A DNA stretch of 64,000 nucleotides from Umbilicaria muhlenbergii (lineage: Eukaryota > Ascomycota > Lecanoromycetes > Umbilicariales > Umbilicariaceae), in the NCBI GenBank assembly GCA_000611775.1, contig KK106982.1, positions 2,909,992 through 2,973,991 on the forward strand, in the 5' to 3' direction. Below the pieces are notes generated by a model. That model searched no databases and was not told the DNA's origin. It was given only the letters and a program-made list of their open reading frames with translations. This document shows, one piece after another, positions 1-59,240 of this stretch. The translations under genes and the position numbers were made by a program. How positions within the stretch are numbered: position 1 is the stretch's first letter; every line of letters begins with the position of its first letter.

Positions 1-1194
1 CAGATAATGGACCTCGAAACCCGCAACACCGCCCTCCAAACCGAACTCGACTCCGCAACCCCCACCTCCCTCTCCCGGCGCACCCTCGACCCCAGCACCT
101 GGCTCCCCCGCTCCCCCGCCCGCCACACCCTGCAATCGCACCGCCTCCCCATCACAAGCCTCGCCTTCCACCCGATCTTCTCATCCCTCGCCTCCGCCTC
201 CGAAGACGCCACCATCAAGATCTGGGACTGGGAGCTCGGCGAGCTCGAACAGACCGTCAAAGGCCACACGAAAGCCGTCCTCGACGTCGACTACGGCGGC
301 CCCCGCGGCGGCACCCTCCTCGCCTCCTGCTCCTCGGACCTCACCATCAAACTCTGGGACCCCAGCGACGCCTACAAGAACATCCGCACCCTGCCGGGCC
401 ACGACCACTCCGTCTCCGCCGTGCGCTTCATCCCCAGCGGCGCCGCCGGGTCGCCCGCGTCCGGGAACCTGCTCGTGTCCGCCTCCCGCGACAAGTCACT
501 CCGGATCTGGGATGTGAGCACGGGGTACTGCGTGAAGACGCTGCGGGGCCACTCGGACTGGGTGCGAGCGGTCGCGCCGAGCTTCGACGGGCGCTGGCTT
601 CTCTCCGCCGGCAACGACCAGACGGCGCGCCTGTGGGACGCCGCGTCCGGGGAGACGAAAGCGACGTTCCTCGGGCACGAGCACGTGGTTGAATGCGTGG
701 CCTTGGCGCCCGCCGCCTCGTACGCGCATCTGGCCGCGCTCGCGGGGCTGAAGAAGGCGCCGCCGGGGAGTAGTTCGGGGGAGTTCTTGGCGACGGGGTC
801 GAGGGATAAGAGCGTCAAGGTGTGGGATTCGAGGGGGACGTTGATAAAGACGCTGGTGGGGCATGATAATTGGGTTAGGGGGTTGGTGTTCCATCCGGGG
901 GGGAGGTATCTGGTGAGTGTCGGGGACGATAAGTCGATGCGGTGTTGGGATTTGGCGCAGGAGGCGAAGTGTGTCAAGGTTATAGATGATGCGCATGCGC
1001 ATTTTGTGAGTTGTGTGAGGTGGGCGCCGGGGGTGGTGAGGAGTGCAGGAGTGGGAGAGAGTGGTGCGGCGGGGGTGAATGGGAATGGGAATGCGGTGGG
1101 GAAGAGGGATGATCCGGGGGGGGTCAAGGAGAGTATTAGATGTGTGATTGCGACGGGGAGCGTGGATTTGAACGTCAGGGTTTTTGCTTCGTAG
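1..1194 (+). CDS. PAC1: Nuclear distribution protein Pac1/NudF (LIS1), 5'-partial
   Basis: Dynein regulator of the LIS1 family, cut by the window start; the frame is open from base 1. The visible ~397 residues begin at the end of the coiled coil and carry WD40 blades ending [45 protein letters not shown] and MRCWDLAQE, with a last blade ending RVFAS. The N-terminal LisH dimerisation motif must lie upstream. In the family, Pac1 acts with NudE to hold dynein at microtubule plus ends for nuclear migration. A Gly/Ala/Asn-rich insert sits in the last blade (about residues 345-375). No intron is seen in this part. The coding strand runs from C-rich to G-rich: 39 C/9 G at 61-120 against 6 C/36 G at 1021-1080 (hand count). 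Confidence 0.95.
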
Positions 1195-12093: not shown

Positions 12094-13861
12094 CTACCCC
12101 TTCCCCTTTTCCCCCCACAAATCCCTCCAAAACTCCTTAAACCCATACTGCGGCTTCCTCTCATCCCACACCCTAGCCTTCTCGCCCTGAAACCGTTCCA
12201 ACACGCCCCCGGGCCTGTGCCCAATAACCTCCACTTTGACTTTCACCGGAGCCGTGGCCCGCGTCTTTATCTCGGCGGGGAGTTGCGCGGCCACGTCCGC
12301 GTAGCAAGAGCGGAGCTCGCGGTCGAGGTTGAAGTAGGGTTTCTTGGCTAGGTTGGGCGCCATGAGGTTGTAGGAGCGGGTTAGGTTGTTGAGGTTGGCG
12401 ATGGCGAGGGTGAGGTAGGAGCGTTCGGTTTCTTCCCAGGCGGGGTCGCGGAAGGGGTATACGCGGGGGAGAGGAGGTTTGTCGGGGGAAGTTGACGGTG
12501 GGGGATCGATGGGGATGTCGGTGGATGGAGATGTTGATTGGGATGCCGGGGTTGGTGTAGATGATGAGGTTGATGGTGTTTCGGAGGCTAGGTCTTCTGT
12601 AACAGTGATCTCGGAGTCTTGTGCGTCGCTTTCTGGTGTGGGAGTTTCCGTTACTGTAACTTGGCTGACGATACCCTTATGGTTGATCTCACTGAGCGCT
12701 TCGACTTTCGGTACTTGGGGGTTGTTCAGCGCTTCCGCCGTAGCGTAGGCCTCGGCTCTCCTGATTTGAGACTCTAGGGATCCGCCTTTGCTGGAAATTG
12801 TTCGAGCGGCATGTCTTTTCCAGTCGGCCCTTAACCGAGTCCGGAAGATGGATGCGGCTTTAACAAGCTCTTGCTGCTTTTCTATCCATGGTGGTACAAT
12901 TTCCTGCTTCTGAATAATCTTGTTCATAAAGTATTCCGTCGTATCCAGAAAAGGACTGCTAGCATTGTAATCTCTTTCGATATTAGTCCCCTTTCCTCGA
13001 GGTATATTCTTGAATTGGCCCCTATTGATCGCATCTTCTATGCGCTCATTCGCTAGGGCGGCTAGACCTTGGAGGGATGTTGGCATGGGACGGGCACCAG
13101 AAGTGAATCGCTCCTTTAGCTGCTTCCTCATTTGTTCCTTCTCTTTTTCGCTCAATGTGGAGTCTTGAGCGAGAGCGTAGATCGAGGTGCGGTCTCGAGC
13201 ATTCGCCAGGCGCTGACCTGCAGACTTCTGCACAGCTTTCCGCATGCGAAGGTCAACGCTAGCCGGTGGCGCTCGAGGTTTTGGTATCTTTGATGGACCA
13301 GTGCCACGAAGAGGCTTGTGGGCATCTGTGAGCATGCGTAGAGCTGCATCTTCGAGTGTTTCACTCCCTGACCACGGCTGAGCTGCTGCGATGTCTCGAG
13401 TCCCTTTGCCTGCGCTTGACTAGGAACTAGTGTCAGCGAGCGGCCCATTTAGCAAAGCAATATTCATAGCATACCGGCATATTTGCCTGTGCAAACGCCG
13501 CAGGGTTCTCGCTCCTGAATTTGCTATCTGCAATCCTAGCCTCCAACCGTCTCTTGAGCTCCTCCGAGAAGCCAGCGTCCTCGACGGCTCTTTGAGCGCT
13601 CCTACCCCCTTGTTCTATGGTCTCGTCCGTCATTTCTGCTAAGCGCCTCGACATAGCCCCTTTCTCCTCCGCCTTCGCATCGGACCGGGGGGTTTCGAGG
13701 TTTTCTTCATCCTCAGGCTTGGCCGCTGGCTGGGCACTCGCGCGCGGCGTTGCCGAAGAACGACTGAACGGACGAGTAGCAAGGAAGACATTGAGGCGCG
13801 GGAACTGTCGGTGTAGACAGCGAGCGCATATGTAAGGGCTCGATGGACTTATACCGGGCAT
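12094..13861 (-). CDS. DnaJC28-like protein with DUF1992 domain, probably mitochondrial
   Basis: Two exons, 13861-13475 and 13419-12094 (55-nt intron, GTATGC to CCTAG); ~570 residues. The N-terminus (ICARCLHRQFPRLNVFLATR, then PFSRSS) is rich in Arg and Ser and looks like a mitochondrial presequence. The DUF1992 domain typical of DnaJC28 homologues is visible at about residues 225-330: ALANERIEDAINRGQFKNIP, then RGKG, and later FLDTTEYFMNKIIQKQEIVP followed by PWIEKQQE. A Ser/Thr/Pro-rich linker (about 390-440) follows, then a C-terminal block with AIANLNNLTRSYNLMAP. No J-domain HPD motif is seen, as in other fungal members. The coding strand is C-rich in the middle and G-rich in the last ~250 bases. 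Divergent from PSF3 over a 420-bp promoter. Confidence 0.85.
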
Positions 13862-14281: not shown

Positions 14282-15025
14282 ATGAGCTACTACGACATCG
14301 ACGCGATCCTCACAGACGCGCAAAAAGTCCCCTGTACGTTCGAGCTCGACGTCCCAGGTCTAGGTTTCCTGGATGGAAACGCAGGCGGCGATGTACGTAA
14401 CAAAGCCAACCCTCCCCTCTCCCTCCCGTGCATACCCTTAGAAAGCCCCGTACTCACAATTCCACAGATGAAGCGCGGCACGCGCACCACCCTACCCCTC
14501 TGGCTTGGCGAACTTCTCGCCGTCCATCGCCTTGGGAATTCCGCAGTCGTGAATCTCGACCTGCCCGACACGCTCTCCCCACGGGTTTTGAACGCACTGA
14601 AAGCGGATCCAAAGACTGTGGATTTGCGGGCGCTGGCGCAACATTTCTACGGGCTGGCGGCTAGGGTGCTGGATTTGTTCGAAGAGGAGGAGATTGTGGA
14701 TATCTTGACTGAGGTAGATAAACACTCTTGGGGGGCTCTTGGGATGGGACGTGGATGAGGACAATAGCTGATACTTAGGGTGGGACAGACGTTCAAGAAG
14801 AGAGCAGCGGAGATTGCTGACCATGCGCACAATCCACGGGGAGCGCTGGGAGAGGGAGCCGAGTTTCTACGGGGATTAGATGAGATGGAAAGGCAGTGTA
14901 CGTTCTACTCATTTGCAACGCAAACCGAGAACGACTGACACTCAAGCATGGTAGTGTTCCGATCTGCTCACGATAGCGCCAAGGCAATGCGCATTTGGAT
15001 GGGCGAGCTCAAGAAGAAACAATGA
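14282..15025 (+). CDS. PSF3: GINS complex subunit Psf3
   Basis: Subunit of the GINS tetramer, part of the CMG replicative helicase in the nucleus. Four exons: 14282-14392, 14468-14713, 14789-14897, 14955-15025; ~178 residues, the usual fungal Psf3 length. It starts MSYYDIDAILTDAQKVPCTF, a typical Psf3 N-terminus. Further blocks are LPLWLGELLAVHRLGNSAVV, TFKKRAAEIADHAHNPRGAL and MERQLFRSAHDSAKAMRIWM. The third exon was placed at ACG (acceptor GGACAG), because this joins ILTE directly to TFKKR as in other fungi; earlier AGs give an extra insert or the wrong frame. Exon 2 goes from C-rich to G-rich near 14600. No paralogue nearby. Confidence 0.93.
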
Positions 15026-15970: not shown

Positions 15971-16881
15971 TCAAGCTTCGAAGCGCTTCTCCACAGTCTT
16001 CCAGTTGATGACATCCCAGATCGCGTTGAAGTATTCGGCTTTGCGGTTCTGGTATTGTAGACTAAGAACAATCAGTAACGCTCTCACCCCGAGCTCTACA
16101 GCAGGCTGTCTCACTAGTAAGCGTGCTCCCACGCATCAATCCCCAAGAGCGGAATATACGGTCCCACAACCGGATCTTGATTCTACCCAAAAGCATTAGC
16201 CCATCGTCCCCATCCGCTGCACCCCACCCCGCCTTCCCCATCCACCCCCACCAACCCACGGAAAACTCACCGCATAACTCCTCACCCTAATCTGCCCCGT
16301 CTCCCGATCCTTAACCAACCACGCCCAACCACTCCCCTGAATCCCCGCCAGCGTCGCATTCATCGCCTTCTGCAAATTCTCCAACCCCCCACACGTCTCA
16401 TCAATCGCCCTCTTCAACCCCCCACTCGGCGGCTCCCCCCCGCCCCGACCCTTCGGCGCCAGGTTCTCCCAAAACAAACTATGGTTCAGGTGCCCCCCCC
16501 CGTGGAAATTGATCAGCGGCTGCAGCGCGATCTGCGCGGCGATGTCGGATTGCGACTGGGCGGTGGCGAGTTTTTCGGAAAAGGTGTTGAAGGAGGTGAC
16601 GTACGTGTTGTGGTGTTTGCTGTGGTGCAGCTCCATGATTTGCCCGGAGATGGCCGGTTCGAGCGCGCCGTAGTCGTCTGGAGCCCCGGGGGCGCGGGGG
16701 GGTTGGTGAGCTGGCGGCTGGGGGGCAATTGGATGGGGAGTTGCTTACAGGGAAGGTCGGGGAGGGTGGCTTTGCCGCGGGTGAAGCTCAGGCCTGCGAG
16801 GCGGGCGGGCTTGGAGCTGGCGGAGGCGCTGGCCCGGAGGGCGGAGCGGGCGAAGGTTGTGCGCAGGAGGGTGGCGGACAT
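15971..16881 (-). CDS. SOD2: Superoxide dismutase [Mn], mitochondrial
   Basis: Converts superoxide to H2O2 and O2 in the mitochondrial matrix. Four exons: 16881-16749, 16677-16271, 16182-16115, 16061-15971; ~232 residues. The ATG at 16881 opens a presequence (MSATLLRTTFARSALRASAS), followed by LPDLPYDYGALEPAISGQIM. Metal ligands are in HHSKHHNTYV, GGGHLNHSLFW and DAWEHAYYLQY. The block GIQGSGWAWLV carries Gln at the position typical of Mn rather than Fe enzymes. All four joins rebuild conserved sequence and the phases agree. An in-frame ATG at 17025 exists upstream, but its extension is Ser/Pro-rich and not family-like. The coding strand is C-rich at the 5' end and G-rich from about 16500 on. 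Confidence 0.97.
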
Positions 16882-18650: not shown

Positions 18651-20959
18651 CTACCTCCCCCCCCCAAACTTCCCCTTTTTAAGATTCTCCTTACACTCAT
18701 CACAATACCATTTCGCTACCCCCCACAAAAGTCAGCACGGCCCTTCCCCACCAGAACGGCAAACCCAGCCGATCCCCGAGCTTTAGGGAGAAGGAAAGCA
18801 ATCAAACTCACCATTCCTCGTCGGCGCCCTCGTCAACCCGACACAGTCCAAATGAAACCACTCCCTCGGACAGCTCTCCATATCGCACGCCACCATCTCC
18901 CCATAGCTGACCTGGTTACAATAGCAATACCTCGGCTCCTCTCCGTCCTCGTCGTCCTCATCGTCCCCCTGCACCGACGCACCATCATCCTCCGCCGCCG
19001 CCGCAGCCGCCAGCTGAGCCGCCAGCCCCGCGCCCTTTTTATGCGAGCGTTTCCCCGTCGTTTCGGTCGCGCGGGACGACCGCATGCGTGGTGGTGGGGG
19101 GTCGGGAAAGGAAGCGGTGATGGGGGTGGAAGTTTTGGAAGTTTTGCCGCCGCGGGTGGAGGTGGAGATGGAAGGGAGGCGGTCGGTCCGTTTGGTGCTT
19201 TCGCCGTTCTCGATGGTTTCTTCGCGTTTGAGGGATCTTTCGGTGCCTCTATTGTTGACGAGTGCACCTCCGCGCATGTCCGCCTCGCCGTTACCGGTGT
19301 TTTCGATGGGTTGTTCGCCTTTCGTGTTCGCGGGCTCCTTGGTCGAGTTTTTGGTATCGCCGACGCTTTTGCCCGTTGGACCTCCTACCTTGTCTACCTC
19401 GGCCGCAGTGCCGTACAAGCCGTTGCCGTTGGCGCCCTTATTCGATGCGGAGGAGGATGGTCGCTGTCGTGCGTCTTGGACGACTGATTGGCTCGAATTT
19501 TGTCGTACTCGAACTGGTTGTGCTCGTTGCGTGGGGCCCGGCGCAGGACTGTTGGCTTTAGCTGTAGCAAATGTACCCACAACTGGTGATGAAGCCAATA
19601 AAGGCGAATTGGCAGTGGAGGCGTTGGTGTTAGTCCTGTGATAGACATGGTAAGTTTTGAGCCCAGTAATGAGTAAAGGGGTTGATTGTACCTCTTTCTT
19701 GGGGCTCCGTTAGTCGCGGCTGCCGACCGAACCCTTTTCTTCGCAACTTCCACGGCCGGAGTGCTCCTTGGGCTTCCAGCAGTACCGCGAGAAGCGCCAC
19801 CATTTGCGGTCCCGTAAACCGAGCTAAGAGCTCTTTCCATGGTTACTCCCCCGTTTGTGAGACCCGTCGATGGCTTCTCTGTTTTCCGCCGTTTGTTTGG
19901 TACACCAGCTGCTGTATTCACCGTTCCGTTCGCAACGCCAAGCCCAACAGCTGCGCCGTTCATCGGTAACCCAGCTTCTGCTGCCTTCCGGCTTTTGGTG
20001 TTGCCTTGTCCTCTCTTCGCCGCAGACTGTGCGCCTCCGCGCCCGTCGTCGAAGTCGGAATCTGCCCTCTGGTTTCGCTGCTTGCGCGCGGCAAGAACTT
20101 CTCTTCTGTTCTCGCTCCGCAACGCTGCGGCGTCTTCACCATTGAGTGCTGCCGCTGCCGCCGCGAGACTGTTTGCAGCTGCAACGTCTCGACGGGTGCG
20201 CTCGCCGGCAGTGGTGCCCTTTTTCTCAACAGCCTTCTCGGTGCTGTAAGCCCAATGGTTGAGAATACCAAAGCGTGCCTCTTCGCTGATTTCGCCATCG
20301 ATGTGTTTGAAGGAGCTCTCGCACCGTGCGAGCTGTTTGTTGAGGGTCTCGTTGGCTGTGGAAATAAGGTGATTCTTCTCGTCGAGTGTCATGAGCATCT
20401 CTTGCGCCACAACCCGAAGATCGCGAAAGAGTGTTCTGCGTGGGATATCGGAAGTGTTGAGGTCCTCTTGTGTTTCGGGCTGCGACGCAGCTTCAGTTTG
20501 AGCAAAAGCGAGCGCTACTGGCCCATCGTTGACTGAGCCGGCGGCACTGACTGCAGTGCCAGTGGTAGATCTGGTTTCATCCTTTACTTGCGCCAACGTT
20601 ACTGGTACCTTGCGAGGCGGGGCAGGAGTGTTCAGTGCCGTGTTGACCAGTTGTCTGAGTATCTCTTCCGGCCCATATGTTTTCGCATCGACTTCCTTCA
20701 AAAGGGTGTAATGTCGAACCATTTCTTTTGGCAAGGCCGTAATGGAATCAGTGAAATGTGTAATGGCCGGAAAGAAGCCAGGAGCGGCGTTGGTAGAGGG
20801 CTGGTTGTCCTGGGCTCCACCGAAGGAACTCCGACCACCGAAAGGTCGAATGCCATTTGTTGCGGTTCGGGTAGGATTGGTGCGTGTTTGACGAAGAGGC
20901 TGACGTCTGTTCGGGGGAATGCCAGATTCGACAGCGGTGGCAGTTGTAGAGGTCTTCAT
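18651..20959 (-). CDS. ING-family PHD-finger protein (Yng/Pho23 type)
   Basis: Nuclear reader of H3K4me3 in a histone acetyltransferase or deacetylase complex (NuA4, NuA3 or Rpd3L; which one cannot be told from sequence alone). Three exons: 20959-19692, 19635-18812, 18715-18651; ~718 residues, long for the family. The N-terminal ING part includes ITHFTDSITALPKEMVRHYT, then LLKEVDAKTYG, and a later helix around LMTLDEKNHLISTANETLNK. A long Ala/Ser/Thr-rich basic middle follows. The C-terminal PHD finger is complete only after joining exon 3: YCYCNQVSYGEMVACDMESC, FHLDCVGLTRAPTRNAKWYC, then DECKENLKK. It thus has the Cys4-His-Cys3 pattern and the Tyr/Met/Trp aromatic cage. The coding strand flips from C-rich to G-rich near 19078. 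Confidence 0.93.
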
Positions 20960-23365: not shown

Positions 23366-25520
23366 ATGGACATGACTCCATTCTCAACAGCCGACGCCAC
23401 ATCTGTTCAGAAAAGATATCAAGCGGCAGACTTTGACAAACTCACCAATCACAGGACTTACCCCATCTCGACTACCCCAGATTCCAACGTTGCGCGTACT
23501 TTACCTGCAGAACGCACCAGCAACCGACTTCCTGTCGCTACTGCCGACAAGCGCTCCATATCTTCAAGACGCGCCTCATCTTCGACAGCACAGGGGTTTC
23601 CAACAAGGGGTATAAGGAGGGATAGCTCATACTCGTCTGTACACGAGAATGGCGAGGGTAAGATAACTTGCCATAACACAAACTGAACATTTCTCCGAAT
23701 CCGCCACTGATCATTCATCATGAAAGCAGGCACGGCACAGTCCTTCCTAGAGTCCTCCCTACCTCGCGCTTCTCTACACGATGAAGCTGTCGCAGATGAC
23801 AAGGATGACAAGGATGCCACGGGCACCGGAGTATGCAGCTGCTGTTGCCGGTGTGGGAGATCTCGAGAGTGGAAACAAATTGGTCCTCGGGCCACAAGGA
23901 GGAGCAAAAGTCATAGTTCTTTGAGGACTGGTGTTGCTGAGATCACGTTTTGGGATTGGGAACCGCCAAAACGCGAAGTAGCGGCGAGCACTGAGACCAC
24001 AAAGCCATGTGGACCAGGCGAGGCGCCTTTGGAAAGACTGCCAGTGGAGATGCTGGGTATGATTATGGCATCTTGCAAGTGCTCAGAACATTGTACTGAC
24101 GAGACCGCCACCAGATCATATCATTGCCCAGCTTGCTCTCGAAGTCCCTCCTAACAATTACTCCCCCCGAAACGTTGATCTCATCTCCTGTCTGCTTACT
24201 TCGCGAACAATACATGCAGCAACGCTTACGACCTTGTATCACCACATCACAATTCCTCATTCGACCATCTTTTCCAAGTTCCTGGGTCATCTGTTCGAGA
24301 ACCCGGCTTTGGGTACCATCGTGAGGAGGTTGGATCTTTCCCACTTCACCTCCATTGGCCTTGGTCGAACTCAACAGATGAACTCTACAATTCAGAACAT
24401 GACCTCAAAGACGTTGCTCCAATGTCTCGAATTGATCCCTGCTGTACAAGAAGTCTTACTCCAGGAGCACCTTGACGAAGATATCGACGCGAAGGTCCTT
24501 CGCAAGCTTTTCTATGATCTGCCCAACCTTCGAGCATTGGACTTTTGTGCTGCCGCGTCCAGCCCTTTTGTCGAGGCTTTTTCCTCGGCACTGACGACTA
24601 TCGGCTCTTCAGCAAACCTACAGATGGGCATTCGGCGATTGTGTCTACATGAATGCTTTACGCTACCGACTTCTGTCTTTGAAAACCTCCTTCCGCGTCT
24701 ACCAAACCTCACGCATCTCGATCTATGCCATACTCGGGTGACGGACAAAGCCCTAGCCTCGATACCTCACACGGCTAGACTCACGCATCTCAATCTGGGT
24801 CGATGTACCCAAATCTCCGGAGACGGGGTCGTGGATCTGATCACGGCTCATCCCGCTGTTAAAAGCCTTGTCTACCTTAATCTTTCCTGCGACATCTCAC
24901 GGTACCGACTATTGTGGGAAAGCGATGTCGATCGCATACTTGCCATTCTTCCCTCGACCCTACGTTCGCTGAGCATCAGTGGCGCAAAGGTCCAATCGGG
25001 GCACCTCCAGTTGATTATTCCCCTCACGAAACACCTGGAAGAGCTGAGCCTCGGGTTCGCGGAACTCTCTATGCGCGACATCAATTCAATCTTCGAGCCC
25101 AAGACCTTATCAGACGAGCAGGGTGAAGCGACCTGTGAAGAATCAGAGTGGACACCTCCGACTCTCCGCTACCTCGACTTGACAGGTATCAAACCCGTCA
25201 CTCAATCCGCCCTCTTCTCCTCTTCGTCCAACATCCTCCGCTCCACCACCCGCCCGCTCGAAGTGCTCGAACTCGGCGACAAAGTCATCTCCGCTCTCCG
25301 CGACTGCACCTTCACCAACAAACGGCTCGGATGGGTCGTCAAAGAATTGGGCAGACGCGGGTGGTATGTCAGAGAACCGACGCAGGAGGAAGCGCAGCTG
25401 GGTGAGGCCAGAGGCCGCAAGGCGTGGAAGATGGGTGCTATGTGGTGGGGTATGAGGAAGATCCCGGTTGCGTGGGGAGAGGTGGGTGGGTTGTATGGTC
25501 ATTACATGTTCAAGCGATGA
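23366..25520 (+). CDS. F-box/leucine-rich-repeat protein
   Basis: Likely substrate receptor of an SCF ubiquitin ligase. Three exons: 23366-23657, 23727-24056, 24115-25520; ~675 residues. A Ser-rich disordered N-terminus holds a Cys cluster (CSCCCRCGRSREW). The F-box start is APLERLPVEMLDHIIAQLAL, rebuilt across the second intron, and continues NVDLISCLLTSRTIHAATLT. The C-terminal half (about 300-600) has RNI-type LRRs: LRALDFCAA, IRRLCLHECF, LTHLDLCHTRVTDKALASIP, LTHLNLGRCTQISGDGVVDL, LVYLNLSCDIS, LRYLDLTGIKPVTQSALF. The target is unknown. The last ~400 bases switch from C-rich to G-rich. The ATG at 23372 is an equally possible start. Confidence 0.88.
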
Positions 25521-29872: not shown

Positions 29873-30382
29873 GCTGGTATTTTAACTGAGAGCATGATGT
29901 ACAATATGGGTATGGCTGTGAGGTCATGTTGAAGCAGCCTTAGGTGCCATCTGTCAGACTTTTGTGTGATGGTCGCAGTTCGAGTTCCTAAGCAAGCATA
30001 GTACAAGGAGTTCGGGCAATCCCATGATAGGAGTTGGAGGCTTTAAATGATGCTAGAGATCCAGCAATTCTTCTTATTTGTACACGCCACAAATCGTCAA
30101 CGAATACACAATGAACTTCTAGCCATAACTGCATGCCTGCTTATCCAGAAAGAAAGAAGCACTAATCAGCCATTTGACTGCCGCAGGGTGAGCTAATCAA
30201 CCAACATGCCAGCGCAAAGTCCATTCCAGTCTGAGAGATGCCCCTGGCGGTGTGCCAAAGTTGGACATATCATTACCTACCCAAGAGCTTCACCGCCGTA
30301 ATCGGTATCCGCCCCCGCTCATCCGCGCCTAAGCCGAACCTACAAAGGTACTTGCTCCGAAGTTTCCCCCTTCGGAGCACAA
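29873..30382. other. Intergenic, convergent 3' ends
   Basis: Between MRP10 and the first LPxEIR-family gene. Nothing recognisable. Confidence 0.55.
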
Positions 30383-32026: not shown

Positions 32027-32350
32027 TCACCGAATGCGCACCCCTAGACGTATAGGATCATGGCGCGGTAGCGGCCGCATATGAGCAGCGTTCGAATCAC
32101 TCCGGCTTGGTGGTCTTGGAGAGTTTCTCAGTTCCCATTCGGTAGTACCGGTCCCAAGAGACGATCCCCTGACGCTTTCCGACTGTCTATCTCCCATCTC
32201 AATATCTCCAGGGCTTCGTTCACGGGCCCGCGGGCCTCTCCGATCATCATTGGTTTGCGGTGGTCGTCTTACCCATTCGCGAGGCGCTGGGGCTACGTTC
32301 CGTGGGCGACGACCTCTCTCTGTATCGTTGCAAGTAAAGCAGTTGCCCAT
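32027..32350 (-). CDS. Possible small protein with MGNCFTC lipidation motif
   Basis: 107 codons from an internal ATG (an upstream in-frame ATG lies at 32413). It begins MGNCFTCNDTERGRRPRN: Gly2 with Cys4 and Cys7 is the pattern for N-myristoylation plus palmitoylation and for plasma-membrane attachment. The remainder is Arg/Pro/Ser-rich and disordered (WVRRPPQTNDDRRGPRARER). No domain. An antisense ORF of similar length overlaps, so expression is unproven. Confidence 0.35.
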   Translation of the reverse strand: MGNCFTCNDTERGRRPRNVAPAPREWVRRPPQTNDDRRGPRARERSPGDIEMGDRQSESVRGSSLGTGTTEWELRNSPRPPSRSDSNAAHMRPLPRHDPIRLGVRIR

Positions 32351-32413
32351 GATTGGTGCTACGAGCGAAGGTTTGATGCCGTATCGCAAAAGCAGATGGG
32401 TTTGAATGGGCAC

Positions 32414-34623: not shown

Positions 34624-35301
34624 TCAATAATCCGTCCCAACCTCATTGTCAATCTTCTTCATCCACCCCTCCAACCCCTTCCGACAGCGCCACTCCTGCA
34701 CAACCCTCTCCTCCCCACGATCCGAAGAATACGTCACGATCCTAACAACCAACACTACCCCATCCGGCAGAGCCCTATACAGCGACTCCAACGCCGGTTT
34801 CCCCACCCCCCACGTATCCCCCAACCGCTTCGGCATAACCACAGACACCTGCTCCAGCGCCTTCATCCCCTTCGTCGTGTCCCAGACAGTCCTATCCCCA
34901 ATGACATTAAAGCCCGCAGGGAGACGAATACGCGTGATACAATCACGGCGACGCTTAGCAAGGGAGCCAGTGAAGAGGTAAAGATCCTTCGGGTCCGAAA
35001 AGGCGAAGGTGTTGCGAGAATAGAAGACCTTAAGCGCCTCTTTGTAGATCTGACGATTGACACGCGCAAGCGCGAGGAAGCGGCTAGGGTACACGAGATC
35101 CTGAGTGCGGGTTTTGCCGGCTTTCTTGTGGTGGCGGAGGACGAAGGTACGGACGGGTTGGGGCGAGGGTGTGGGGTCGGGGACGCGGAGGCGAGCTTCG
35201 ATTTCTTCGTAGTCGCAGAGGCAGAAGGCGTAGATCTTGTCGCGGAGCTCGCGCGGGAGCTTGAGAAGTGGGGAGGTCACTGTTTCCTCGTGGAATTGCA
35301 T
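34624..35301 (-). CDS. LPxEIR-family (DUF7730/F-box-like) protein C
   Basis: 225 residues in one exon, start MQFHEETVTSPLLKLPRELR. The family blocks are LLKLPRELRDKIYAFCLCDY, then EEIEARLR, and FLALARVNRQIYKEALKVFY, then SRNTFAFSDPKDLYLFTG; these are the clearest of the three copies. A basic stretch (RRRDCITRIRLPAGFNV) follows, then ALEQVSVVMPKRLG. Third member of the same-strand cluster with 30383-31036 and 33162-34295. The coding strand is C-rich first and G-rich over the last ~250 bases, unlike its two paralogues, which have near-neutral codon use. Confidence 0.75.
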   Translation of the reverse strand: MQFHEETVTSPLLKLPRELRDKIYAFCLCDYEEIEARLRVPDPTPSPQPVRTFVLRHHKKAGKTRTQDLVYPSRFLALARVNRQIYKEALKVFYSRNTFAFSDPKDLYLFTGSLAKRRRDCITRIRLPAGFNVIGDRTVWDTTKGMKALEQVSVVMPKRLGDTWGVGKPALESLYRALPDGVVLVVRIVTYSSDRGEERVVQEWRCRKGLEGWMKKIDNEVGTDY

Positions 35302-35841
35302 GCCTAGAGAAGCGTAGGTCAGTGTCGAGGCTCAGGGAAGCGGTTGCATAAGCTGAAGGGGAAGCAGACCGCGGATGGCGATACCTCGCATGTTGACGGT
35401 TTCAAGATCCGAAAAGGCGAAGGCCTCACTTCCCAAGATCTCGTTCGAGGTGGAAGCTCGAGATTGAGGGTTTTGTGAGCCGATATCCCTTCGTGGTGTC
35501 ATTGTGTAAGGCAGTGGTAGCTCCGAGTGCACTGGATCACCTGTGTTATGAAGTACTGATTTCATGAGTAAAGCAGCAAGTCCACACATGAGATGGTGGT
35601 GTTGTGGTGAGGAAATTAGCCTCATTTCATTGTTGTGGAAATTTGAGTTTCACCTCACAGAAGGTGAATGAAGACTTTCGAACGCAGTGAAAACAACTGA
35701 GATAGACCTTATCTTCAGCACCAGAACGTCGCTTCTGTTAATCCCTATATCTTAGAATCTCTTGAGCAACACAGGTATCACTTCGCTAACGCCACGCTAA
35801 TGGATCATTGTAAGCTCATGTCCAGGACATTCAAACGTAAG
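35302..35841. other. Intergenic
   Basis: Upstream of protein C and downstream of the acyltransferase. One 97-codon minus ORF (35332-35625) without features. Nothing else. Confidence 0.5.
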
Positions 35842-39578: not shown

Positions 39579-40397
39579 CTAGTCTTTCCCCGCCCGAAGT
39601 TCTGCCCTGGTGATTACCAACTCTTCCGCCAGGTGGGGATACCTTGTACTCAAGGCCGCCATCCATTCCTCGTCTCTTTCTGCAACCGCCCTTTCCAAGG
39701 CCTTCTGACCTTCCAGCTCAAGTCTCCGCATTTCCTCAGCCTGCAGCCTAAGGATATCCTTCCACCTCGTCTCCCAGATGTCTTCAACCTGATTTCGCGC
39801 CTTGTCAACCGCTACTTGCTGTTGCTCCACCATTTGGTCTTCCCTTGTCGCAACCTCTTCTCGTGCCCTTTCCACATCCCTGTCCCTAGCCCTAAGCTCC
39901 TTCCGATATGCCTGGTCTATATCATTGATCCTTTGTCGCATGTCTGCCAGCTGCTGTTGGTAATTCTGGTCCACCGTGCTCACTATTTGTTGGTAGTGGG
40001 CGAACAAGGCGTTGTCTGTATCGGCCGTTAGGGGTGAATTATTCTCAGATAATTCAGCTTCGCTGTAATCTGGCGATGGTCTGTCACTGACTTGCGGGTC
40101 ATCAGAGTCAGCTGCTCTTTCTGTAATTGTGTTCGCGGAAAGATTGAGGCCCTCGTATGGAGGAGCTGCGTGCTCCAATGAAGTGACGCTGAGTATTGAT
40201 CCAGGCCTTCGAGCGGCAAGTCTAAGAACATCCCGTACCAAGCTGAGATTGCTGCTCATGGGCTCCTCGCGCTGCAAAGTACTAATGCTGGTTTTAGTTC
40301 CAGTAGAGACTACACTAGAGGCCCGTGAACGGAGAGACCGTTCAAGTAGTCCTCCGTGCTCGGAAGTCGTCGCGTCACTGGGTTGCGAGGTTGACAT
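39579..40397 (-). CDS. Coiled-coil protein of unknown function
   Basis: 272 residues, single exon, not recognised. The first ~120 residues are Ser/Thr-rich and disordered. Residues ~130-250 form a long charged coiled coil (YQQQLADMRQRINDIDQAYR, then ELRARDRDVERAREEVATRE, later RLELEGQKALERAVAERDEE). It ends with a short helix containing MAALSTRYPHLAEELVITRA. No signal peptide or membrane span. Codon use is ordinary. Could be structural or an adaptor; nothing nearby suggests a pathway. Confidence 0.7.
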   Translation of the reverse strand: MSTSQPSDATTSEHGGLLERSLRSRASSVVSTGTKTSISTLQREEPMSSNLSLVRDVLRLAARRPGSILSVTSLEHAAPPYEGLNLSANTITERAADSDDPQVSDRPSPDYSEAELSENNSPLTADTDNALFAHYQQIVSTVDQNYQQQLADMRQRINDIDQAYRKELRARDRDVERAREEVATREDQMVEQQQVAVDKARNQVEDIWETRWKDILRLQAEEMRRLELEGQKALERAVAERDEEWMAALSTRYPHLAEELVITRAELRAGKD

Positions 40398-42933
40398 TGT
40401 AGACGATCAGCAGGCTGATACTGCCACTTACGAAGTCATGGCCGGCGGGACATGTCTCTCCCTCGACGTCTTGAATGAAAGTATCGATCCTACTGCGAGA
40501 CATTCATGTCCCAATAGTAAGAGCGGTCTTCTAGCCTCCTTCAGAACAGATTCCAAGGGCTGTGGGGCTGTGCCGGCGCGCAAGGTAGCAGGCACGGAAA
40601 GTGAACGCGATGGCTAACGATTAACATATATGTATATATAGAAAGAAATATGTTGGGTCAGTGGCTGATTCATGTGCACAAAATGAGCAGTAAAGAGATA
40701 CTCAGTCAAGGTCATAGCGAACGAGGTGTACACTTCTTGTCGCATTGCCTGGAAGGATCTGGCCAGGGCAGCGGGCGACAGACCAGCCAAAAGCAGCGTA
40801 GCGCCCATTGCGCTTGGCACCTCGACAGATAGACTTTCTTCTACTTCATCTACTCTTAACTACAGACTTCAAACTTGTGCAATTATTTCGAAACTGATAC
40901 CTTCCACGAGGTAGAGTGTTTAAAGACGCACATTCAGACACTGCCGTCCTTGTCATCCCAGAGGTGTTAGCGGCGACTGTGGTCCAAAACAACCGGCTAT
41001 TAACCAATAGAGTATCAATGGTTGCATGTATCCTTCAGGGCTTCGGCGGCACAGTGCAGAAGGCTTCTGGCTGTCTCGAAAGCCCCATAAATGCAGCCCC
41101 AGATGTACTAGAGGTTCTCTCCAATACTTCCGTTGCTATAGTCTCACAACCATCAAATACCTTCAATCTCTGTCTTCTAGCCCGGTTTTGTGCTCGGTGA
41201 AGTTATCCTAGTAGCGATTGAAGTAGATGGATCATACCTAAGATTGTTTACAAACGTTATCAGAAGGAGAACCGCTCCACCACCGAGCTTTTGAGTTTCG
41301 TTGTCTGCGTCAGTAGCTGGCCCTTTCTTTTTTGAGACTGAAGAGTGCCTCTTCGGAGTCTGGCTTCCCCTCCTGTCACATGCTCGTACATTCACTATGG
41401 GTTTTCAACTACAGTTGGAAGATCCCCGCACCTTGTATTCGATGATACCGTCATCCATCCGCGCAACGTTTCAAGCAGCAAGTCCTGATCTAAGTACGGA
41501 AGGACTATTCCGCCTGAACTCTGTGAAACCAAGAGGACGTGCCGCTACATAAATCAAAACAGGATACGATGTCGATACCGTTACTGGGCATGGGCAGAGA
41601 GGTGGCGGATCTGTACCCTCAGCCATGGTATCTTTTGACTCTAAGAGTTTCTCCCTAGATTACCACACCAGGCTCGAGAATATTCACTTACGGCTATGAC
41701 TCCTGCTATGACTCCTGCATACTGTTTCGCATGTCTCTCGCTGCTATTGCTCGTTTCGCCGAAAGATTGTTGAAGAGCTCGAGGGTTGAACGGGTGACTG
41801 AATGGGTCACACACGATGTGTATTGGTCCTTTTCATTGACACATGGAGAAACGAAGGCGGCAAGTCGTCTTCATGTACCACACTCTACGTGGCACAGTGT
41901 TTTACACCGGGAGTGCTTCGCAAGATCAGGCTTTGACAGTCACTTGACGAATCTTGAATCCTCAAAGCCTTCTAACTGGCCAGGAAGACCCCCATTATGC
42001 TGCTATAGACACTTACAGACCTGCGATCCTAATTTTGCAAACACCACACGGGGTTGGAGGGGGCAAAGCGGAATGAAGCATAGTGCTGGGGAATACGATT
42101 GATGCATCCACAAAGGTTGGGGGCATGGGCGGCCTAAATGGGGTGCAGGAATCTATTTTCTGTGACAACTCAAAACGGACTCGATCGTCTTCCATGATAT
42201 ACCTACGTGTTTTAGCCCCTGTCTAGATGGTTTCGAGGTTGTCAGGTGTGCAAGACCAGGCAGACGGCTGTGTTCACGTTGAAGGCATGTTCTCGGTATG
42301 TTCTTGGCTGATACTACAAGTCCATGAGATTTCGTAATACCGTTATGTGTGACTGACCCCTTCAAGGTTGTTCCCTACCCGTCTGCGTCCATCCACCACG
42401 AAAAGCGCCCCTACATACCTATCAACGAGAAATGTCTCGCTGTGATTCAGATCAAGACCGGTTGTACAGACTCTTCGGGAGCAGAGCAGGGAAGTACCTA
42501 GAGTATTTTAATATACATCTAACATCACCTATCCACCCGCCTGCTACTGTCTCCCTGTTTCATAGCCTTTGCTTTACTCTCGATGAAACGCAGCTCGTAT
42601 GCATCAGCTTTGCCACCGCCGTCAGCTTGAGCCCTCGAAGCCTATATAACAGACCAGTCTGGCACTCCTCGTCCTCTTGTTCTTCCCATGCAAACATCAA
42701 TCAAACCTATTATCCACTTACCCACTTGACACGATCACAATTCCTTCCAGCAGGACAAACCAGCCTCTTCCACAGCACCCAAGCCATAATCCCATTCACG
42801 CTTCCAAAAGAGCCTTGTCACTTCGCATCAGAAACGCCAATTTCAAACCCAAGGCCTCTCTGAAGTTCAGTAAGTTGCAAGCCTGTAGCTCATCCTTGAC
42901 TCCCTCCGATCAGCTTGCTTAACCCTAACAGAA
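40398..42933. other. Intergenic 2.5 kb with unclear coding traces
   Basis: No gene called. A minus-strand frame upstream of 41232 (GGGAVLLLITFVNNL) ends at a good GTATGA donor, and after the acceptor GCTAG a 48-codon frame continues, including TIATEVLERTSSTSGAAFMG, to a stop near 41036. This could be the 3' part of an uncharacterised gene. Overlapping plus-strand ORFs of similar length make it doubtful. The region 42432-42900 is pyrimidine-rich and looks like the leader of the gene at 42934, with a possible leader intron (GTAAGT donor, AACAG acceptor two bases before the ATG). Confidence 0.4.
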
Positions 42934-50172: not shown

Positions 50173-51586
50173 CTACCCCCCCTCCCCCCTCAACACCGCC
50201 TGAAACACCAACGTCCTCTTCATATTAAACGGCGGCACCTCCCCTCCCCCGGCTTTCAACGCATCACTCACCACAATAAACACCCCGCCCAACACCTGCC
50301 CCCCCGCCCAACAAATAACACTGCCCACCTCCGCCCCCACGGGGTACGTCACCTCGACCAAGAACTCCAACGCCACGGGCACCAAGCTGAAACTCGCCGC
50401 CCCGAGCACGCTCAGCACGACATAGGGCGCAACGACGGCGCGCGTCGGCGGCGCGAAGACAAAGGCCAGATAGGTGGCCGCGATGACGGGGACGAGGAGC
50501 TTGAGGACGAGGAGGTAGCGCTTGGAGCGGTCGACGACGGGGCTGGTGACGGCGGCGGCGGCGAGGCCGACGAGGATGAGCAGGGCGCCCGCGACGCCGG
50601 ATTCGGTTTCGGAGAAGCCGTAGGGGGTCAGGATTTGGGCCAGCAGGGAGGAGAGCGAGATAAAGAAAAAGACGAAGAAGGAGAAGAGGGCGAAGAAGAG
50701 AAAGAAAAGAGGGATGAGAGCGAGGAAGGAGAAGAAGAAGAGGAAGAAGAGATGGGCGAGGGCGCCGCCGAAGGGGATGGCGAGGCTGGCGACGGCGGTG
50801 GCGGAGACGCGGCCCGTGGGCGAGAACCAGAGGTCCGAGTAGCGGGTTGGGGCGCTGAGGACGAAGGGCTGGGCGAGGCCGATGAGGATTTGCCCGAGCA
50901 TGAGGATGGCGAAGCCGGTGGAGGGCGGGTGCAGGCGGGAGCCGAGGTAGCGGAGCCAGTTGCCGAGGAGGAGGAGGAGGGAGGCGAGGAGGAGGGAGGT
51001 GCGGGGCGGGTGGTGGTGGAGGGTGTGGAGGGTTAGGGGGGAGGCGAGGACGAAGGCGAAGAGGAAGGCGGTGCTGAGCCAGTTTATGGTGGAGGGGGAG
51101 GTGGAGAAGTAGAGGGAGGTGGTGTTGATGACGGGGGAGTAGGTGAGCCACTGGAGGGTTTTGGTGTCAGCAATGCGCGGGAGGGACTTTGTCAAAGGGG
51201 GAGGGAGAAGAGTTGGAGAAGAGGGAGAGGGAGTGGGGAGGGGAATAATGGAAATGGAAGAGACGTACATCCCAGCTCACGATAATATTCAACAAGACCA
51301 GTTGAACGAGTCCGAACCACCGTCGCTTGTAGACTCTATACACCACCCTCTCCCCCTCCGCCGTCCCTTCTCCCTCTCGCTCTCGCTCTCCCTCCCCCCC
51401 CTCTTCTCCCTCGACTCGCTCCACCACCACCACCTCATCCACATACCCCCGCTCCACGCGTGTTTCGCGCTCGTCTGCCGAGCCCATCGCGCTCAACTCA
51501 GTCCATTCGCCAGAGTCGGATTGCGGCAGGAGGGAATGCTCTTCACTGGGTCTGCGGCGTCCTGGCAGAAGAACATCCGGAGACAT
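50173..51586 (-). CDS. MFS transporter, SLC49 (FLVCR/DIRC2)-like
   Basis: Two exons, 51586-51269 and 51150-50173 (119-nt intron, GTACGT to CTCCAG), ~431 residues. A ~90-residue hydrophilic N-terminus is followed by KRRWFGLVQLVLLNIIVSWD and WLTYSPVINTTSLYFSTSPS, then INWLSTAFLFAFVLASPLTL, characteristic of the SLC49-like branch. Later come LGQILIGLAQPFVLSAPTRY and LTPYGFSETESGVAGALLIL. Between PFGGALAH and ISLSSLLAQ is a ~35-residue, almost pure Phe/Leu stretch encoded by a polypyrimidine run. There, family members usually have a loop and membrane spans of clearly greater length, so the centre looks shortened, or the assembly collapsed. Substrate unknown. The coding strand is C-rich, turning G-rich at the 3' end. 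Confidence 0.82.
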
Positions 51587-55770: not shown

Positions 55771-56142
55771 TGGTCAACGCTGATCTAGAAATCCGAATGC
55801 TTGCCGTTCACCATGCATTAGCGCGATCCGATAAGGCGTAAGGCTGAGGAAGCCTGGGAGGCCACAACTGATGGCCTCGTCAGCATGCTTGCGTCACGGG
55901 GGGCGAAGCTCCAGAGAGAAAAGCCCCGGGATTCCTGAAGAGAGCGCGCCTGCTACTTTGGATGTAACTGACGGTCTTTCAGCTTCACCTCCCCGTTCAA
56001 TTATTCCACAATGCCGAAAGTCCCGAGCACCAAAGAGCGGAACTCCTTCCGCCCCCAACATCTCGGCGGGATTTTATCCGCGATTAGCCGGGCCAAGCCC
56101 TCTCCCCAAAACACCCCTCCACAGCCCCAACCCCTCCGAAAC
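55771..56142. other. Shared divergent promoter region
   Basis: 372 bp between the OB-fold-like gene and AIM32. An in-frame upstream ATG at 56011 could extend AIM32 by 44 residues. Confidence 0.5.
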
Positions 56143-57401
56143 ATGACCTCCTCACTCGCCTCCGTCCTCCGCCGCGGCGCCGCCTTCCTAACCCCCACCG
56201 CCTCTTCCGACTCCCTCCCCCAGCTTACCTCCGGCCAATTCGCCACCGCCCCCGAAGGCCAACTATTTCCCCGAGTCGACCCGGCCATCGACGGCGAAGA
56301 TTGCTTCGAGGACTGCGCGACATGCACGGTGCATTTGCCGCCGAAATGGAGTATTGATGAAAAGGAGAAATTGTATGGGTGTGTGAAGGGGTGGGCGACG
56401 CATGCGGTTGTGGCGACGGGGAAGACGGATTGGGTGCGGGATGTGGAGGATGAGAGGGGGAGTGTGATGGAGGCGGTGAGGGAGTGTGGGGTTAAGCCTA
56501 GTAATGGGGTATGTCCATCGATTCTGGTATCTCTTCGGACAGAGTGAGCATGGGAATTTCGTGACCGTGGTGCTGACGGGCAAGTGGGGAACAGCGACTC
56601 ATGCTCTCAGCCTCCAACATGCCCCTCCCGCCTAACCACCACGACTTCCCACCCCCCGACGCCCCAACCACCATTCTCCTCCTCCCCGCCTTCACGGTCA
56701 TCGAAAACGTCACTCCCGCTTCGGTGGGGGAGCTGATAACGCACTACATCTCCCCCGCGCCCACAAACACCACTCCCCTCTTCTCCCCGACCCCGTCCCC
56801 GCCCTCCCCTCCACCTCCACCGTCCACCCTCCCCACCTCTTCTACCCCCTCAATCCCCACCTCTCCTACCCCCTCAATCCCCACCTCTCCTACCCCCTCA
56901 ATCCCCACCCTGTCTCTTATNNNNNNNNNNNNNNNNNNNNNNNNCCCTCACCACCCCTTCACCACCCGCCCCTTCCCCCACAAATACCTCCTCCTCCTCT
57001 GCTCCCAACGCACCCGCGACGCCCGCTGCGGCCAATCCGCCCCCCTCCTGCGTCGAGAATTCGAACGCCACCTGCGTCCCCTGGGTCTGTATCGAGACAT
57101 CCACGACGAGCGGCCGGGGGGAGTGGGGGTGTATTTCATCAGTCATGTGGGGGGCCATAAGTTTGCGGCGAATGTGATGGTTTATCGACGGGGGGGTGCG
57201 GGGGGCAAGGAAGATGGGAAAGGGCAGGCAAATGGGGTGGATGGGGAGGGAGAGGGGAATCAGTGTATTTGGCTCGCGAGGGTTCGGCCGGAGGACTGTG
57301 AGGGGATTGTGAAGTTTACGGTTTTCCAGGGGAAGGTCGTTCAGCCGGAGAGGCAGTTGAGGGGCGGGTTTGATCGGGGGAGGGGGCTGGTCAGTTGGTA
57401 G
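56143..57401 (+). CDS. AIM32: Aim32-type sucrase/ferredoxin-like protein (contains assembly gap)
   Basis: Thioredoxin-fold [2Fe-2S] ferredoxin-like protein of the mitochondrial Aim32/Apd1 group. Exons 56143-56508 and 56595-57401 (donor GTATGT, acceptor AACAG). The start MTSSLASVLRRGAAFLTPTA looks like a presequence. Exon 1 has DCFEDCATCTVHLPPKWSID and GKTDWVRDVEDERGSVMEAV; exon 2 has LLLLCSQRTRDARCGQSAPL and GVGVYFISHVGGHKFAANVM, then VYRRGG. These supply the Cys-x8-Cys and His-x-x-x-His cluster ligands of the family. A Pro/Ser/Thr insert (about residues 150-205) has three 24-nt repeats and then a 24-N gap (56921-56944), so residues there are unknown; the frame continues only if the gap length is right. 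Both exons go from C-rich to G-rich. Confidence 0.9.
56831..56909 (+). repeat. 24-bp minisatellite inside AIM32
   Basis: Three units at 56831-56854, 56855-56878 and 56879-56902, then a partial unit. Each encodes eight residues, Pro/Thr/Ser/Ile (PTSPTPSI with one variant). Units 2 and 3 look identical; unit 1 differs by one base. Confidence 0.9.
56910..56920 (+). other. Sequencing-adapter remnant (Tn5/Nextera mosaic end)
   Basis: CTGTCTCTTAT is the first 11 bases of the reverse-complemented Nextera mosaic end and abuts the N run. It interrupts the 24-bp repeat. It is an assembly artefact, so the codons here are not genomic. Confidence 0.85.
56921..56944. other. Assembly gap (24 N)
   Basis: Run of 24 N inside AIM32 exon 2, directly after an adapter remnant and a minisatellite. 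The true length is unknown. Confidence 0.98.
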
Positions 57402-57956: not shown

Positions 57957-59240
57957 CTAGAACGACACAGTAGGCGACGTAGTAATCGTATAAGGCAAAT
58001 CCAACGGCGTCCTCGCCTCCGCCAATCTAATCACACTCCCCGCAGACCTCTGCGTACTAACCGTCGACGCTCTCGTCCTCACACGTCTAACCGGACTGCT
58101 CGACGTCGACCGCGGCGCTCCCTGATTCGTCGTCCCCAGCGTACTCATCCTCCGCGCCCCAGGTGACGAGTGCCCGGTATAGAGGAACCTCTGACCCTGG
58201 CTGCGCGACCGCGGCGCTTGTGGGCTATAGCCGCGGACTGACGGGGCGTATTCTTCGGCTTCGTAGTACTCCGGTTGGGGTGTCCGCTGCACGGTCTCGT
58301 TGGTCATTAGACTGGCTTCGTCGCCGTCGGAGATGTCGCTGGCGGCGTCTTCCTCTGCGTGAAGCTCCGCGAGGATGTCGGGGTCGAGCTCTTTCATGCC
58401 GCGTAGGATTTCGGCGAAGATGTGCATCAGGGTTCTGAAAGCTGTCTCGTCTAGCCCATGGCCGGAGAAGCGGGCTTTTTCGTACAGAGCGAGGAAGGTC
58501 GGGCCTAGTGAGGTGGGGTTTATCATGCCGAGGGAGGTGAGGTGGGTGATGTAGTCGCGCAATCCCATCGTTGCGGGCCGTTGGAGGAGTTCGACGGCCA
58601 GCGCATCGGGTAGGGTGACCTGATTTGCGGCGGGACCTTGTGGGTTGAGGTCGGGTTCGAAGAGAGGGTCCGGCGGGACTAAAGAGACGGCCTTGGCTTC
58701 GATGAGGTGGGGGAGTTCGAGGATGACGGGCTCGAAATGGAGGTTTGGCAGATCGGGGGAGGAGGGAGAAGACCAGCCGGGGTGGGAGATGTTGCCCCAA
58801 GTGCGGACCTCACGGTGTTGTGTTCCTGGTATTGTCTCTGGAGGAGCTGCTGTGGAAGTCTCTCTGTTTCCCTGGACAGCTTCATCTGCTTTCAGATCTC
58901 TTGGTCGTGCTTCGTATGCTATCCGCGCATTTCTTGCCAAGCTCTCAATCACCATGCGCCGAACGCTCTTGCTCACATCGCCCTTCTCGATTGGGATCCA
59001 TGCTTTCGGTATGCTTGCCAGGGCACTCCTGTTAGTGTACAGGCGACTCGCATACAAGAGTATGATGAGTACTAGAGTTAACAAGTAGACGCCCGCGATA
59101 ACGAAGATGTTGTATATTTGGCGGTTTTGATAGGCCTGATAGATGGAATCGCCGGGGGTAATGAGTAGCAGGACGATGGTGATAAGAGTGAGGATGGTAA
59201 AGGTAGTACTGTAGAATATACGGAAGACTGGTATGTGCAT
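57957..59240 (-). CDS. DLT1: Dlt1 family protein (defect at low temperature 1)
   Basis: Fungal membrane protein of unclear molecular role; the yeast gene was named for a cold-growth defect. 427 residues, single exon. Two membrane spans near the N-terminus: FRIFYSTTFTILTLITIVLL followed by LITPGD, and NIFVIAGVYLLTLVLIILLY followed by ASRLYTNRSALASIPKAWIP. The block IEKGDVSKSVRRMVIESLAR is characteristic of the family. The middle contains FEPVILELPHLIEAKAVSLV, and the C-terminal ~130 residues are Ser/Arg/Pro-rich and disordered. The coding strand is C-rich in the middle and G-rich in the last ~280 bases. Divergent from the S9 peptidase gene. Confidence 0.92.
   Translation of the reverse strand: MHIPVFRIFYSTTFTILTLITIVLLLITPGDSIYQAYQNRQIYNIFVIAGVYLLTLVLIILLYASRLYTNRSALASIPKAWIPIEKGDVSKSVRRMVIESLARNARIAYEARPRDLKADEAVQGNRETSTAAPPETIPGTQHREVRTWGNISHPGWSSPSSPDLPNLHFEPVILELPHLIEAKAVSLVPPDPLFEPDLNPQGPAANQVTLPDALAVELLQRPATMGLRDYITHLTSLGMINPTSLGPTFLALYEKARFSGHGLDETAFRTLMHIFAEILRGMKELDPDILAELHAEEDAASDISDGDEASLMTNETVQRTPQPEYYEAEEYAPSVRGYSPQAPRSRSQGQRFLYTGHSSPGARRMSTLGTTNQGAPRSTSSSPVRRVRTRASTVSTQRSAGSVIRLAEARTPLDLPYTITTSPTVSF

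Follow-up and report, generated by a model that had tools for sequence, protein, structure and literature searches.

The window analyzed here, a stretch of 64,000 nucleotides from Umbilicaria muhlenbergii (G000:C2:2909992-2973991, in a genome of 34.8 Mb in 7 contigs, with a gene content that looks like a filamentous ascomycete's), opens in the gene PAC1, in which the composition of the coding strand changes from C-rich to G-rich. An initial annotation had described this switch as sharp and had listed eleven genes of the window as carrying it. Its hand counts for PAC1 are exact (39 C and 9 G at positions 61-120, 6 C and 36 G at 1021-1080), and in 60-bp bins the GC skew is -0.62 and then -0.64 over 61-180, as against +0.71 and then +0.77 over 1021-1140. 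The PAC1 open reading frame (ORF) at 7-1194, in which Pfam recognizes six WD40 stretches, gives z = 10.6 against shuffles that permute codons among positions with the same amino acid within the gene, so that protein and codon usage are kept; of a third-position skew change of 1.07, the shuffles retain 0.10. The word “sharp” does not suit PAC1 itself, where a gradual, logistic change (Bayesian information criterion, BIC, 201) fits better than a step (213). The ORF start at position 7 is probably not the true start of the gene: the window opens with CAG, just before the ORF, resembling the end of an intron, and PAC1 presumably has further N-terminal exons upstream. The 1.5 kb upstream of the ORF (sampled as L001) are without strong skew (100-bp values from -0.21 to +0.22), and the C-rich arm of PAC1 seems to begin with the exon at position 7, not with the gene. 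Viral contigs scanned with PAC1 yielded no relative.

The extent of the switch was addressed with 314 kb of DNA in total: the window and 250 kb sampled from the same genome, namely 20 stretches of 10 kb at 200-kb spacing over 0.1-3.9 Mb of contig C1 and one stretch each on C3-C7. Genes were predicted ab initio with a finder trained on 21 frames of the window and on its own predictions in the other loci; 20 of the training frames have a Pfam match, some of them weak, and one (26440-28581) has none. The finder holds C-type and G-type codon states which are permitted in any order, and it is therefore without bias toward one direction; it may, however, prefer skewed genes over others, and the switched fraction may be overestimated. 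Early versions were dropped for missing genes and putting the major facilitator (MFS) gene on the wrong strand, and a third for being too insensitive (45 models). In the window and L002-L021 the final version predicted 65 genes, of which 64 reach 100 codons (L001, which repeats the window, was excluded), and L024-L026 added seven more of that length, for a total of 71. The check across contigs comprises seven genes of C5-C7, two with z>3 and none with z<-3 in the half-split test described below; it is limited to these because the stretches on C3 and C4 yielded no gene models. Seven of the 25 sampled stretches have a GC content of 0.31-0.38 (L004, L012, L013, L015, L019, L022, and L023) and hold just three gene models; these AT-rich blocks resemble those left by repeat-induced point mutation in other fungi, from which we infer that they may have a similar cause.

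A gene was called switched if a step model of skew at fourfold codons improved on a constant model by a BIC difference (dBIC) above 4. Among the 70 of the 71 genes that have 30 or more fourfold codons with G or C at the third position, 32 show a C-to-G step and two the opposite (L005:8996-9976 and L018:6830-9472), where synonymous shuffles lead to an expectation of 1.10 and 0.10. A step describes the change better than the gradual model in 27 of the 32, and the switch is in this sense mostly sharp. Comparison of the first with the last 100 bp, in a test modeled on that of McLean and Tirosh, is significant in 41/71 genes, with one opposite, and comparison of gene halves with shuffles gives z>3 in 20/71 genes and z<-3 in 3/71. 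The half-split test was rejected as the only statistic, as it goes negative in long genes because the switch sits close to the stop codon; two of its three genes with z<-3 (L006:5143 and L011:2594) belong to the C-to-G step set. A scan blind to gene models, comparing two 300-bp halves, found 31 C-to-G against 15 G-to-C jumps at D>=7 and 17 against 4 at D>=9, while base-shuffled DNA gave no jumps at D>=5. Predicted genes contain 24 of the 31 C-to-G jumps at D>=7, and of the other seven at least one lies in a gene truncated by the finder (AIM32). Lowering the threshold to D>=5 gives as many jumps one way as the other (48 vs 52), and weak jumps are therefore without preferred direction. These results confirm that the C-to-G switch in the coding strand is real in this genome.

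The position of the break is tied to the stop codon. In the 32 switched genes, which range from 133 to 1171 codons, the break lies a median of 108 codons before the stop (interquartile range 75-136, range 36-266), and this distance does not depend on gene length (slope -0.006+-0.047, as against 1.006+-0.047 for the distance from the start). Uniform placement of breaks would give a slope of 0.50 (sd 0.18), and the observed value was reached in none of 5000 simulations; the 23 genes whose strand is supported by Pfam give 0.035+-0.061. All ten switched genes of at least 450 codons have their break in the 3' half, as do 10/11 of at least 400 codons. A comparison of the last 90 codons with codons -220 to -120, using no fitted break but with the latter range picked after the breaks were known, shows a positive change in 50/68 genes, exceeding 0.5 in 30 and falling below -0.5 in four (Wilcoxon p=7e-7). 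In the 24 genes of at least 450 codons, the last 90 codons differ from codons -220 to -120 (p=0.03), while the first 90 do not differ from codons 120-220 (p=0.88). Likewise, there is no C bias at the start of the 11 switched genes whose break is preceded by 250 codons or more: the fourfold skew is -0.02 in codons 0-25 and +0.17 in codons 25-50, with fourfold GC at 0.47 and 0.52, and the C-rich arm is confined to about 300 codons from the break. A start-anchored model was rejected for long switched genes on these grounds. Gene length, considered for a time as the controlling variable, was superseded by the fixed distance to the stop; short genes seem special because a break at that distance falls near their middle.

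An exon-anchored model, to which PAC1 and AIM32 had pointed, was also rejected. Exons other than the last do go from C to G as a class (69 exons, mean +0.28, p=0.0008), but the change resides in the 12 that hold a break (+0.94) and is not significant in the others (+0.16 in 27 and +0.12 in 30). No shared word marks the breaks, the most frequent 7-mers occurring at no more than 5/32 and being GC-rich, and genes with convergent and tandem 3' neighbors show no clear difference.

The change at the break concerns several classes of site. At fourfold sites C falls from 0.63-0.69 to 0.11-0.16 and G rises from 0.12-0.16 to 0.64-0.67, and fourfold GC, which is 0.44-0.52 in codons over 300 positions upstream, reaches 0.80-0.83 at the break. 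Twofold sites, which were not used in placing the break, follow it, with C at pyrimidine-ending codons going from 0.87 to 0.36 and G at purine-ending codons from 0.31-0.47 to 0.85; the shift is therefore one from A/C to G/T besides one from C to G. In a set of 18 genes with z>3, AT skew at fourfold sites goes from +0.25 to -0.43 over the gene. Codon positions 1 and 2 shift across the break too, and amino-acid usage differs, with S, P, L, and T enriched before it and M, G, E, and V after.

Introns carry the switch as well. A filter on splice signals retained 22 introns of switched genes, with a mean skew of -0.43 in the 11 before the break and +0.20 in the 11 after (p=0.005); five of the former are strongly C-rich (-0.47 to -0.78) and eight of the latter G-rich. 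Introns required by the reading frame give a pooled skew of -0.55 before (10) and +0.34 after the break (9), whereas in genes without a step the introns do not shift (-0.11 vs -0.06). The 25 introns lying no more than 450 bp from the break have a GC content of 0.571, against 0.486 for the 23 farther off (p=0.0003), whereas the GC of flanking DNA is independent of the distance to the break. Upstream of switched genes the skew is -0.21 in the first 50 bp; downstream it is +0.38 in the first 50 bp and approaches zero by 100-150 bp. Raw distance tables hinted that the flanks track the break symmetrically, but regression over 256 downstream bins of 50 bp assigned the skew to the distance from the gene end, at -0.127+-0.024 per 100 bp, with no dependence on the distance from the break (-0.007+-0.011); upstream, neither term is strong (0.013+-0.006 and 0.037+-0.018). 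The compositional domain therefore respects the transcription unit. The downstream bias does persist longer where the break is close to the stop, being +0.19 at 100-150 bp for breaks less than 85 codons from the stop and -0.15 for those at 120 codons or more; on balance, the downstream results favor a cause tied to transcription over one based purely on distance. Non-switched genes show a promoter-side C bias of -0.12 to -0.22 in 50-bp bins within 250 bp upstream.

The switched genes of the window are collected in the table. Ten of the eleven genes listed by the initial annotation hold by model comparison, the DnaJC28-like gene weakly, with reading frames confirmed against Pfam wherever a match was available; the F-box gene at 23720-25520 shows no step, the constant model being best (BIC 240 vs 243). 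The half-split z is negative for the DnaJC28-like (-2.5) and F-box (-1.4) genes and the gene at 26437 (-2.8). For the ING gene the flip had been placed near 19078, which agrees with the fitted break; the Pfam ING match lies in the neighboring exon, and a PHD match in 18651-19277 falls under its curated cut-off. Neither the basic protein gene at 26437-28937 (Pfam scan without match) nor the gene at 57957-58955 that had been named DLT1 (no Pfam match above cut-off) is identified by Pfam, and the gene at 34624-35589 is presumably the “LPxEIR protein C” of the initial annotation. It is the third of three DUF7730/2EXR-type genes in a row (30273-35589), the first two lying outside the final gene set. 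Two introns of SOD2 3' of the break are G-rich (+0.71 and +0.36). In the AIM32-like gene C-richness returns at about 56.6 kb, between its two exon ORFs, and the second flip lies about 320 bp before the stop; the gene-finder model at 56143-56635 is a fragment of this gene with a false stop, and dropping it alters nothing. As for neighbors said to lack the switch, eL8, the peroxygenase, the acyltransferase, and the DUF7924 gene at 45300 indeed fit the constant model (with half-split z of 2.9 for eL8 and 2.1 for the peroxygenase), whereas MPG1 and the DUF7924 gene at 8764 have weak steps (dBIC 2 and 3). Elsewhere in the sample, a ribosomal protein L23-family gene (L014:8356-8908) is switched and eL8 of the window is not, so that membership of the ribosomal-protein class is not decisive.

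Table. Genes of the window with a C-to-G change along the coding strand (positions in the window).
Gene	Position	Strand	Observation
PAC1, large 3' exon (WD40 part)	7..1194	+	C-rich over the first third and G-rich over the last half; step fitted best at codon 165 (230 codons from stop)
DnaJC28-like	12094..13633	-	weak step (dBIC 5), 56 codons before stop
PSF3	14282..15025	+	step 103 codons before stop
SOD2	15971..16881	-	step 141 codons before stop
ING/PHD gene, 3' part	18651..19277	-	step near 19082, 111 codons before stop
Basic protein, 812 codons	26437..28937	-	step 74 codons before stop; BIC 404 constant, 369 step
DUF7730 (LPxEIR-type)	34624..35589	-	step 84 codons before stop
Unnamed	39579..40439	-	step 134 codons before stop; absent from the initial list; frame without Pfam support
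MFS	50173..51487	-	step 81 codons before stop; intron 5' of break C-rich (-0.72)
AIM32-like (Suc_Fer)	56011..57401	+	two flips, at ~56.3 kb and ~57.08 kb
DLT1 of the initial annotation	57957..58955	-	step 72 codons before stop; BIC 177 constant, 110 step

Many genes of this genome have a compositional domain anchored at the 3' end. A C-rich arm, at most about 900 bp long, gives way at a flip some 110 codons (330 bp) ahead of the stop to a G-rich arm, which continues past the stop codon and dies out over the next 100-150 bp or so. We give an even chance to the leading proposal, that a strand-asymmetric process acting on DNA and tied to late transcription causes the switch. Strand-asymmetric damage, repair, or R-loop exposure as polymerase II nears the 3' end might deplete the coding strand of G before the flip and of C after it; G lost through G>A changes 5' of the break and C lost through C>T changes 3' of it would produce the A/C-to-G/T form seen at twofold sites, and translation and protein function would merely follow. 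A transcription-linked mutational or repair process had been among the causes suggested by the initial annotation, and it fits both the anchoring of the switch to the stop and the way the signal ceases shortly past it. The independence from strand that was also reported there holds, in that the same C-then-G order occurs on both strands, but this is no evidence for a link to transcription because C-then-G is its own reverse complement; such evidence comes from the fixed distance to the stop.

Several observations weigh against this proposal. No step in either direction was found at dBIC>4 in 36/70 genes, the gene models are self-made, and Pfam supports the strand of 23/32 switched genes (7/11 in the window and 16 of the 20 scanned among 21 in the other loci). 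Among the filtered introns, six of the 11 preceding the break have a skew close to zero (-0.14 to +0.04), and three of the 11 following it are C-rich (-0.65, -0.38, and -0.11). Fourfold GC climbs to about 0.82 at the break, whereas cytosine deamination alone lowers GC, and the GC peak is thus not explained by deamination. The AIM32-like gene carries two flips, and among the 30 exons far from called breaks seven go from C to G by more than 0.4 and none the opposite way, with a mean that is not significant (p=0.21); these far exons, for example exon 1 of L007:1241 and exons 2-3 of L024:7458, give a hint of secondary foci.

Among other explanations, translational codon selection or protein composition could draw on the amino-acid differences across the break and the shift at codon positions 1 and 2. 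The initial annotation had held that codon choice alone predicts no breakpoint, and we agree: the signal is lost once codons are shuffled with protein and codon usage preserved, and it extends to twofold sites, to introns, and to the near flanks, so that it is not confined to coding sequence. As sole cause this explanation is already refuted by the intron and shuffle results, and as a source of the switch at all we regard it as most improbable. The switch might instead amount to a C bias at the transcript start and an independent, weak G bias at the 3' end, just as in the published averages, with no structure centered on a break. The promoter-side C bias of non-switched genes resembles the C excess described upstream of fungal translation starts (PMC555766), but the first 50 codons of the 11 long switched genes lack a C bias, the first 90 codons of genes of at least 450 codons do not differ from those farther in, and a step mostly beats a gradual change; we consider this combination of two biases quite improbable. 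Selection on nascent RNA or mRNA, with separation of C and G lowering local structure or a G-rich, C-poor 3' end aiding elongation, pausing, or termination, is akin to the hypothesis of CTP or collision put forward by McLean and Tirosh (PMC3315797). Folded on their own, the arms have less structure (-79.3 kcal/mol) than after gene-wide synonymous shuffling (-89.6 kcal/mol, p=8e-6), and the signal in introns and 3' flanks could point to pre-mRNA as the target. However, weaker structure within arms is expected from any segregation of C and G, and RNA across the break is slightly more structured (-127.7 kcal/mol) than with gene-wide shuffles (-122.3, p=0.03) or with shuffles made within each arm (-123.9, p=0.02); selection acting over whole introns also seems demanding. 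We think this explanation unlikely, if less so than the other rivals of the leading proposal.

A focal process blind to strand, arising near the gene 3' end and spreading both ways, would be a further possibility, either through double-strand breaks with strand-unequal GC-biased gene conversion or through bidirectional initiation of transcription or replication. The C-then-G order is symmetric under reverse complementation, codon and intron GC is highest at the flip, the C arm of long genes adjoins the break and not the start, strong jumps in the gene-blind scan favor one direction, and AIM32 has a second focus. A study of mutation around human meiotic breaks, reportedly by Hinch et al., provides a precedent. 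Strand-asymmetric mutations around such breaks are documented there (PMC7615360), but on our own reading of its passages the human single-strand signature (C>N and A>N on the forward strand) would deplete C and A to the left of the break; moreover, biased conversion is described as extremely weak or absent in two Zymoseptoria species (Stukenbrock and Dutheil; PMC5844332). The downstream signal stops with the gene and not at a given distance from the break, flank GC is flat with respect to that distance, and switch amplitude shows no regional clustering (P=0.55). The regression on downstream flanks in particular led us to lower our estimate, and we hold this explanation to be unlikely, slightly more so than selection on RNA. 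The same low probability attaches to the more specific suggestion that the flips about 330 bp before the stop are recurrent start sites of a bidirectional, strand-asymmetric, GC-raising DNA process, such as the repair of breaks with the two strands corrected unequally, or divergent initiation inside the gene; were this true, every such site would show C-then-G whichever strand is read, and the sites could be mapped throughout the genome from base composition alone.

The process tied to late transcription, as well as its rivals, can be judged on features that averages could not provide: a distance to the stop independent of gene length, the participation of introns and twofold sites, and the step form together separate the hypotheses. 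The findings exclude codon selection as the sole cause and move the focus from the start of transcription to the 3' end, and the breaks offer exact sites for comparison with maps of pausing, R-loops, termination, or recombination. The amino-acid shift across the break could mislead gene prediction and analyses of codon usage and selection.

The average trend from C to G is known from work of 2005-2011 (PMC555766; PMC3315797). Fujimori et al. (2005; PMC555766) found C in excess immediately 5' of fungal translation starts, a study of Leptosphaeria (PMC3411245) described a C excess upstream of starts as well, and McLean and Tirosh (2011; PMC3315797) reported that in nearly all the fungi of their survey, which included Aspergillus, Neurospora, and Fusarium data sets, genes have on average a C bias at the 5' end and a G bias at the 3' end. 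In their data the pattern occurs at fourfold sites and in amino-acid usage and extends into untranslated regions (UTRs), the 3' bias being strongest at the stop, and its cause was left open between two hypotheses, one mutational and one invoking CTP or collision; we found no later answer, after 2011, among the matches listed in our search. Neither did the matches listed on skew and on recombination, outside subscription journals and preprints, contain a fixed-distance or intron-shared switch in nuclear fungal genes. On opposite GC skews in unicellular fungi, the matches listed comprised two papers on mitochondrial genomes besides that of McLean and Tirosh. New, in that we did not find it in print, is the stop-anchored and mostly step-like switch common to introns, and likewise the lack of C bias at the start of long switched genes and the GC peak at the break in codons and introns but not in flanks.

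The likenesses and differences are instructive. As in the fungi of McLean and Tirosh, the coding strand in this genome passes from an early C bias to a late G bias, in flanks and amino-acid usage as well as at fourfold sites, and their fourth group, which is C-biased for most of the gene with a small G-biased 3' region often reaching into the UTR, resembles it (PMC3315797). Their 33% of genes for Candida albicans compares with 41/71 here by the test modeled on theirs. Whereas their averages have, as accompanying and not defining features, a C bias strongest at the promoter or start and a largely constant AT skew, besides a weak correlation with expression, we find mostly steps in single genes at a fixed distance from the stop, long switched genes without C bias at the start, and a fourfold AT skew which changes in the genes with z>3. 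The 5' C excess of Fujimori et al., which concerns the 5' side only, is weakly present here, where the strong signal belongs to the 3' end (PMC555766). Around human meiotic breaks the mutation asymmetry likewise reverses across a center, but the sign on the left side is opposite to one that would enrich C and A there (PMC7615360).
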